Notes under the pieces: generated by a model | Told to the model about the DNA's origin: nothing | Seen by the model: only the letters and a program-made list of their open reading frames with translations | The model's database searches: none | Made by a program: the position numbers and the translations under genes | Assembly: GCA_027625145.1 (NCBI GenBank) | Contig: JAQBXK010000013.1 | Coordinates: forward strand, 1 to 48,840 | Length of the DNA: 48,840 nucleotides | Direction: 5' to 3' | Source: Pseudomonadota bacterium | GTDB lineage: Bacteria > Pseudomonadota > Alphaproteobacteria > Puniceispirillales > Marisalimonadaceae | In this document: positions 31,031 to 31,608 of the stretch, in pieces | Numbering within the stretch: the stretch's first letter is position 1 | Layout: each line of letters starts with the position of its first letter

Positions 31031-31067
31031 CAAAAAAAAAGGACGAAGGATGGGGGTCCTTCGTCCT
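31031..31067 (-). terminator. Intrinsic terminator of the DUF1127/small RNA transcript
   Basis: Read on the minus strand, AGGACGAAGGA (31067-31057) pairs perfectly with TCCTTCGTCCT (31050-31040) around the loop CCCCCA, followed by a run of eight U (31039-31032). It is the strongest hairpin I found in the window, in a region where most genes lack any terminator. The opposite strand has no U-run, so direction is clear. Confidence 0.9.
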
Positions 31068-31078
31068 ATGATATTTGA

Positions 31079-31127
31079 TGACATAAATAGCTACCTGGGG
31101 GAGGAAATTAAGCTGTGTGTTATGTCA
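31079..31127 (-). ncRNA. CCUCC-loop small RNA hairpin 2 (cuckoo/CcsR-like)
   Basis: On the minus strand TGACATAA (31127-31120) pairs with TTATGTCA (31086-31079). An inner stem (31116-31111 with 92-87 of the same kilobase, including AGCU/AGCU) carries a large loop with UUUCCUCCCCC. The exposed pyrimidine tract is complementary to Shine-Dalgarno sequences (GGAGG). It lies between hairpin 1 and the terminator, in the same transcript as DUF1127. Architecture matches CCUCCUCCC-motif RNAs found downstream of DUF1127 genes in alphaproteobacteria. It is a prediction from sequence only. Confidence 0.65.
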
Positions 31128-31136
31128 CCATCTATA

Positions 31137-31170
31137 TTAATGCCTGCGGGAGGAAGTATGCAGGTATTAA
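31137..31170 (-). ncRNA. CCUCC-loop small RNA hairpin 1 (cuckoo/CcsR-like)
   Basis: On the minus strand UUAAUACCUGC (31170-31160) pairs with GCAGGCAUUAA (31147-31137) over 11 positions with one A-C mismatch, enclosing the 12-base loop AUACUUCCUCCC. It begins 12 bases after the DUF1127 stop codon. The loop shares the core UUCCUCCC with hairpin 2, which argues for tandem duplicated regulatory hairpins processed from the DUF1127 3' UTR. Confidence 0.65.
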
Positions 31171-31182
31171 TTCTTTAATTCG

Positions 31183-31440
31183 TTATGCAGCCTCTTTATT
31201 TTCAGCTTTTTTATTATCTTGAATAACTGGCTTAGTTAAGCCCATGCTACCTTCAGGAAAGTCTAAAACATCATTTGCGTTAAAGAAGTCACCATTAATT
31301 ACTTGCTGTCTAGTAAAGCCAATATCATTTAATGTACGGTCATCTAACATCGCAAGAGCTTGTTTAGTTCTTGAGATTGCAATTTTTTCAAATGCAGTTG
31401 ATATAAAACTATTTACTTTAGCTAGAAATGTATTTTCCAT
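31183..31440 (-). CDS. DUF1127 small arginine-rich-type protein
   Basis: An 85-residue protein with the DUF1127 core in its centre: 'RTKQALAMLDDRTLNDIGFTRQQVING', preceded by an amphipathic helix (MENTFLAKVNSFISTAFEKI). A tail of about 30 residues follows the core. DUF1127 proteins of alphaproteobacteria include RNA-binding factors such as CcaF1 of Rhodobacter sphaeroides, whose mRNA 3' UTR yields the CcsR small RNAs. The same layout follows here. The start is uncertain: ATG 31440 (GGA eight bases upstream) is chosen. An upstream in-frame ATG at 31464 would add eight basic residues but has no ribosome-binding site. Confidence 0.88.
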   Translation of the reverse strand: MENTFLAKVNSFISTAFEKIAISRTKQALAMLDDRTLNDIGFTRQQVINGDFFNANDVLDFPEGSMGLTKPVIQDNKKAENKEAA

Positions 31441-31533
31441 TATCTTGTCCACTTTTCTTTTCATTACTAAGAAGGGCCATTCCTTCTATGCCTATTATGT
31501 ACTATTTAAATATAATAAAGAGAATAGCTGTAA

Positions 31534-31608
31534 TTGGAAAATGATTGTTTCCAAAATGGCACTATGTAATAAATTTGTAACATTATTAATACCTACATAG
31601 GAAACAAT
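31534..31608. repeat. Nested inverted repeats upstream of DUF1127
   Basis: TTGGAAA (31534-31540) and TTTCCAA (31548-31554) form one inverted repeat with a seven-base spacer. Overlapping it, ATTGTTTC (31544-31551) and CTATGT (31562-31567) are matched by the adjoining ACATAG (31595-31600) and GAAACAAT (31601-31608). The two pairings share bases and are mutually exclusive. They lie between the MFS stop and the DUF1127 start, in the expected promoter/leader region, and could be an operator, an attenuator or the MFS 3' end. Confidence 0.4.

Follow-up and report, generated by a model that had tools for sequence, protein, structure and literature searches.

A CIN1-type locus with a DUF1127 gene and two anti-Shine-Dalgarno hairpins in a SAR116 genome

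Does the DNA that follows a small DUF1127 gene in a SAR116 bacterium only end an mRNA, or does it encode a small RNA acting on other messages? SAR116 bacteria are common ocean heterotrophs, and no paper naming SAR116 and DUF1127 together was found in the literature searched. The window, that is, the whole stretch of 48,840 nucleotides analyzed here (contig JAQBXK010000013.1), belongs to a 2.27-Mb genome that clusters with single-cell and metagenome genomes of SAR116. The initial annotation, made from the sequence alone, had described a minus-strand DUF1127 gene followed by two hairpins with CCUCC loops and a terminator, which direct reading and folding bear out, and had placed them in a low-GC, reduced genome; low GC holds, but at this size the genome is not strongly reduced.

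Anatomy of the locus and its protein

The features of the locus, in the direction of reading, are the following:

31520..31560, minus strand: conserved upstream element, CCATTTTGGAAA...TTCCAATTAC..CTATTCTC (alignment of relatives' upstream regions)
31470..31487, minus strand: small inverted repeat AGAAGGAATGGCCCTTCT in the 5' leader, whose form is kept in several relatives
31183..31440, minus strand: DUF1127 gene, encoding a small protein of 85 amino acids (Pfam PF06568, E 2e-6)
31136..31171, minus strand: hairpin 1, with loop AUACUUCCUCCC, an anti-Shine-Dalgarno (aSD) motif (folding)
31077..31132, minus strand: hairpin 2, with a loop containing UUUCCUCCCCC (folding)
31040..31067, minus strand: intrinsic terminator stem-loop of 11 perfect pairs, then a U-run (sequence and folding)

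The stem of hairpin 1 has 11 pairs around a single A.C mismatch. In hairpin 2 the motif lies in the loop, as annotated, but the predicted fold gives an outer stem of 10 pairs instead of 8; UUUCCUCCCCC sits within the loop that this stem closes and is touched by a weak inner helix of 3 pairs. The terminator loop, ACCCCCA, is devoid of the CCUCC motif. Folding of 31031-31182 (minus strand) yields -42.8 kcal/mol against -21.5 (sd 3.1) for shuffled sequences (z -7.0, 0 of 200 shuffles as good), a large share of this energy coming from the terminator. The loop motif of the window is UUCCUCCC, a reduced form of CCUCCUCCC. Each strand of the 2.27-Mb genome has only about 50 occurrences of TCCTCCC; two of them in sense orientation, some 50 nt from each other and right after the DUF1127 stop codon, are not a matter of chance. 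A Rho-independent terminator is present at the 3' end and none lies between the gene and the hairpins; the two motif hairpins probably belong to a single RNA unit, which is a better reading than the "two-member version" first proposed. With its DUF1127 gene, aSD hairpins and terminator the locus has the anatomy of a CIN1-type locus.

The gene is the sole complete DUF1127 gene found in the genome, and it has an MFS transporter gene on its upstream side and a cupin gene on its downstream side. Its product matches PF06568 with 28 bits (cut-off 23.3), over profile positions 13-36 of 37 only. The likely start codon, at 31440 on the minus strand, is kept in position in relatives. The protein is 59-68% identical to its homologues in genus g2, and the differences between the gene and its relatives fall mostly at third codon positions, which argues that the open reading frame is a real protein. 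Typical DUF1127 proteins contain about 14% Arg and are basic, and CcaF1 binds RNA (PMC12501420). The protein of the window does not have this Arg-rich, basic character: its pI is 4.95 and it contains 3.5% Arg. A g2 homologue has a pI of 4.6; the SAR116 homologues checked in families f4 and f2 are basic. A protein of the CcaF1 type is not part of the definition of a CIN1 locus, so this difference bears on the role of the protein and not on the identity of the locus; a CcaF1-like role in RNA binding or maturation is doubtful, because the protein is acidic and poor in Arg. For YjiS, which is related to CcaF1, RNA binding is without evidence, and the DUF1127 proteins of Agrobacterium act via the kinase PhoR (PMC12501420).

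The conserved element at 31520..31560 is probably a promoter or operator region. A heat-shock sigma site, sought by eye as promoter of the DUF1127 gene, fits poorly in its spacing. An ATG upstream of the start codon (31441-31464, minus strand) shares the reading frame of the gene in the window and in the related locus L011, but in several relatives, among them loci L007-L010, it starts an MKEK-stop mini-ORF. Translation of the leader is possible; uORF attenuation has been described for a Sinorhizobium DUF1127 gene (PMC12218461).

Conservation, distribution and duplication

Homologous 3' regions were collected from SAR116 relatives by means of the terminator sequence, giving 24 distinct but closely related members. 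Loop 1 contains UCCUCCC in 24/24 of them, and loop 2 contains UCCU followed by 4-5 C in 24/24, while the flanking loop bases vary; the initial annotation had both loops sharing UUCCUCCC, which is correct for the window, but these slightly different cores are what is constant in relatives. Many g2 relatives carry the full classical CCUCCUCCC, exactly, in loop 1. The proposed structure is paired in 97% of the cells of the alignment; 5 stem pairs are changed on both sides, against 1.6 in shuffles, and the covariation score is 0.097, against 0.011-0.040 for controls with slid partners. In hairpin 1 both partners have changed in 4 of the 11 stem pairs, the outer stem of hairpin 2 is 99% paired, and the terminator stem, which served to gather the set, is nearly invariant (10/11 pairs never vary). 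The aligned relatives show stems that change with some compensation under fixed loops; the support from covariation is real but modest, as most pairs are invariant. In genus g3 a single hairpin is found, with an unrelated stem (UCUAGAU/AUCUAGA) and a loop of CCUCC repeats. A constant loop on a replaceable stem is the hallmark of cuckoo/alpha-r14 RNAs (PMC3927594, PMC10746234).

The association of the motif with DUF1127 genes extends beyond these relatives. YCCTCC occurs in the 130 nt after the DUF1127 stop codon in 18/18 loci examined in family f1, the SAR116 family of the host genome, in 16/22 of f4 and in 2/9 of f2, against a background of 3.7% of 130-nt windows; among the DUF1127 3' windows examined, none had the aSD motif on the opposite strand. 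As a positive control, a genome from another alphaproteobacterial family (G157) shows a DUF1127 gene followed by seven CCTCCTCCC (CCUCCUCCC) hairpins. The proposal of a CcsR/cuckoo-like locus is largely upheld by CIN1-type anatomy, a kept loop core, compensated stems and the frequency of the motif after DUF1127 genes in f1 and f4. In loci of the f4 genus g17 (L099, L101, L105 and others), UUUCCUCCCU, the alpha-r8 core, lies within a few bases of the DUF1127 stop codon and is followed by a terminator; a motif hairpin is not evident there.

A covariance model of the 3' region matched 21 of the 136 genomes of the order, all of them in genera g1 and g2; the set coincides with the g1/g2 genomes in which a DUF1127 gene was detected, with no exception either way. 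Two genomic sites are occupied, one preceding a cupin gene, as in the window, and one preceding a DMT-type transporter gene; g3 shares the second site. The host genome holds a second, partial copy at G000:C18:1-67 (L215:1-67), where 67 bases match the end of the locus; it starts at the contig edge inside loop 2 and runs into the DMT transporter gene (L215:783-1664). The locus is duplicated in the host genome and the repeat breaks the assembly.

Relatives show contigs ending in the same way. G008, listed as lacking the locus, has a contig (L349, G008:C49 end) that stops inside the sequence of hairpin 2 and the terminator, and contigs of G002, G013, G015 and G029 stop just upstream of the same DMT transporter gene; contigs ending inside or beside the locus are L349, L350, L351, L352 and L353. 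Because contigs end at the same repeat, part of the apparent absence is due to assembly breakage and counts of locus-bearing genomes are lower bounds. A patchy loss of the locus in nearly complete relatives was considered and set aside, the contig ends revealing it to be at least partly an assembly artefact. The SAR116 locus described here, with a protein 78% identical, is also found on CATIQX010000167.1 (L028), from a MAG labelled Cryomorphaceae; this is probably a mis-binned contig.

Relation to known RNA systems

The locus fits best among CIN1 arrangements, as a new member from SAR116 in which the motif is shortened, two hairpins carry it, the terminator is free of it and the protein is acidic. 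This type of locus is already known from other alphaproteobacteria, and the findings require no new kind of system. The CIN1 locus of Rhodobacter sphaeroides, CcaF1-CcsR1-4, likewise consists of a short DUF1127 gene, co-directional aSD hairpins in its 3' region and a Rho-independent terminator (PMC10253847), and its loops are UCCUCCC or CCUCCUCCC; the CcsR RNAs are released from the ccaF1 3' UTR by RNase E (PMC8625941, PMC10253847). It differs in having four homologous RNAs (seven motif hairpins in the G157 array) instead of two hairpins. The last hairpin of the G157 array carries the motif in the terminator itself, unlike the terminator of the window. CcaF1 has moreover been shown to bind RNA and belongs to a typically Arg-rich family, whereas the protein of the window is acidic and Arg-poor, and the RpoHI/HII promoter was not recognised at the window locus.

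Alpha-r14/cuckoo RNAs (NfeR1 of Sinorhizobium; RF02344) share the aSD hairpins with constant loops and variable stems (PMC10746234, PMC3927594), but NfeR1 stands alone and has three hairpins, each with the motif, while the window has a 3' UTR with two. The match to the cuckoo covariance model that had been anticipated did not appear: Rfam RF02344 (ar14) gives 13.6 bits in the window (E 3.9), below the gathering score of 58.8, and no sequence in 61 relatives exceeds the cut-off (best 32 bits). No Rfam family matched the window at gathering scores, RF02346 had no match in the host genome, and a permissive scan returned chance-level matches only, ar14 among them. Alpha-r8 RNAs (MmgR, and SisA-D of Caulobacter), which repress mRNAs via an aSD 10-mer (PMC12559287), resemble the locus in a UUUCCUCCC(U/C) stretch upstream of the terminator; unlike it, most of them adjoin an N-formylglutamate amidohydrolase gene, have a single-stranded motif and show no link to DUF1127. 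The window has no N-formylglutamate amidohydrolase neighbour, its neighbours being the MFS and cupin genes. The f4 DUF1127 3' regions with UUUCCUCCCU look closer to alpha-r8. AbcR (alpha-r15, RF02345) is comparable for its aSD control of transporter mRNAs in other alphaproteobacteria, but RF02345 has no match in 61 SAR116 genomes.

Other putative aSD RNAs were seen in SAR116. In the host genome, an intergenic UUCCUCCCCC followed by a strong terminator (G000:C14:17989; L187:17930-18050, plus strand) is a candidate alpha-r8-like aSD small RNA. Two genomes without a detected DUF1127 gene, G005 and G057, carry an aSD RNA at L112 (G005:C1:284021-284117, minus strand) and, at L114 (G057:C41:11244-11350, minus strand), three CCTCC motifs with an alpha-r14-like terminator that score 30-32 bits to RF02344, under its cut-off.

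Proposed function, alternatives and putative targets

Anatomy, conservation, stem compensation, fixed loops and duplication being directly supported, we consider it probable that the locus is a CIN1-type operon whose 3' UTR gives rise to a two-hairpin aSD small RNA, cut off from the mRNA and blocking the translation of other mRNAs. By analogy with known relatives, the DUF1127 gene, the hairpins and the terminator would be transcribed as a single RNA, whose tail would probably be cut after the stop codon, as by RNase E in Rhodobacter CcsR, and would be stabilised by the terminator and U-tail, possibly with Hfq. Loops UUCCUCCC and UUUCCUCCCCC would then pair with other mRNAs at GGGAGGA-like ribosome-binding sites and prevent their translation. 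We infer this mechanism from CcaF1-CcsR processing and from the pairing of the motif with mRNA leaders in NfeR1, through its aSD loops (PMC10746234), and in SisA (PMC12559287).

Part of the same evidence could be read as a function in cis only, in which the hairpins protect the 3' end of the DUF1127 mRNA or delay its degradation, and the partner of the C-rich loops is a protein or the transcript's own leader. Such a role would fit the strength of the terminator, the stability of the hairpins that follow the stop codon at once, the constant linkage to DUF1127 within f1 and a GAAGGAA inverted repeat in the leader; protection alone, however, does not call for a UCCUCCC loop that stays invariant when stems and flanks change, and the same loop is carried by unrelated stems in g3 and by the aSD RNAs of G005 and G057, two genomes in which no DUF1127 gene was detected. 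We regard it as unlikely. A role mainly as sponge or decoy, pairing with a G-rich RNA as in CrfA-SisA-D or titrating a protein that binds C-rich RNA, is less probable still: loop 2 shares UUUCCUCCCU with SisA-D, which are held by the Caulobacter sponge CrfA (PMC12559287), and the alpha-r8-like candidate with its terminator exists elsewhere in the genome, but the CCUCC RNA of Caulobacter acts as regulator and not as sponge. The suggestion that the loops sequester a regulator found no support. That we are dealing with an ordinary terminator preceded by chance C-rich loops is hardly credible; although the terminator provides much of the folding energy, the fixation of the motif in the 24 relatives and in all f1 loci, far above background, already contradicts it.

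The reading as an aSD small RNA acting in trans directs attention to its targets, which were sought in a sample of 828 kb of the host genome. GGG-type ribosome sites, defined as GGGAG, GGGGA or GGGGG, precede 13/19 genes for solute-binding proteins and 58/732 other genes. The sites of the former pair with the loops beyond what their pairing with 16S accounts for (residual AUC 0.81-0.87); compared with 16S-matched genes, loop pairing has a z of about -5, and the reversed loop -0.8. Pfam assigned 10/10 submitted proteins to solute-binding families. The mRNAs for solute-binding proteins of transporters are, from these predictions, the most plausible target class, in agreement with the transporter targets predicted for NfeR1 (PMC10746234). 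The same ribosome sites are present in relatives without a detected locus, so the signature cannot be tied to this locus; most such genomes are invalid negatives because of the assembly breaks, and a valid control free of the locus was not found. The frequency of DctP ribosome sites does not differ between genomes with and without the locus (8/30 and 10/39, p 1.0), but this comparison counts neither way, because contigs of G002, G008 and G015 end at the site of the locus (3/4 "minus" genomes break there). The transporter signature could also stem from other aSD RNAs, such as the alpha-r8-like candidate of the host genome and the stand-alone motif RNAs of G005 and G057. AbcR was rejected as its cause, RF02345 having no match in the 61 relatives, as was one individual target, GGGAGGAAGTAT before an ATG (G000:C47:22559), a perfect 12-nt match to loop 1 that lies antisense inside a gene.

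As a tentative suggestion, which we hold possible but would not favor, in the SAR116 family of the host genome the DUF1127 protein, having turned acidic, may have lost RNA binding, while the aSD RNA would have been kept as the functional part, duplicated to two sites, and would tune the mRNAs for solute-binding proteins of uptake transporters through their GGG-rich ribosome sites. The duplication breaks single-cell assemblies at the locus, which is thereby hidden from presence/absence surveys. Low-GC genomes, too, retain a CIN1-type locus, its loop motif being shortened; if expressed, it would give SAR116 a regulator acting after transcription, possibly on uptake genes.
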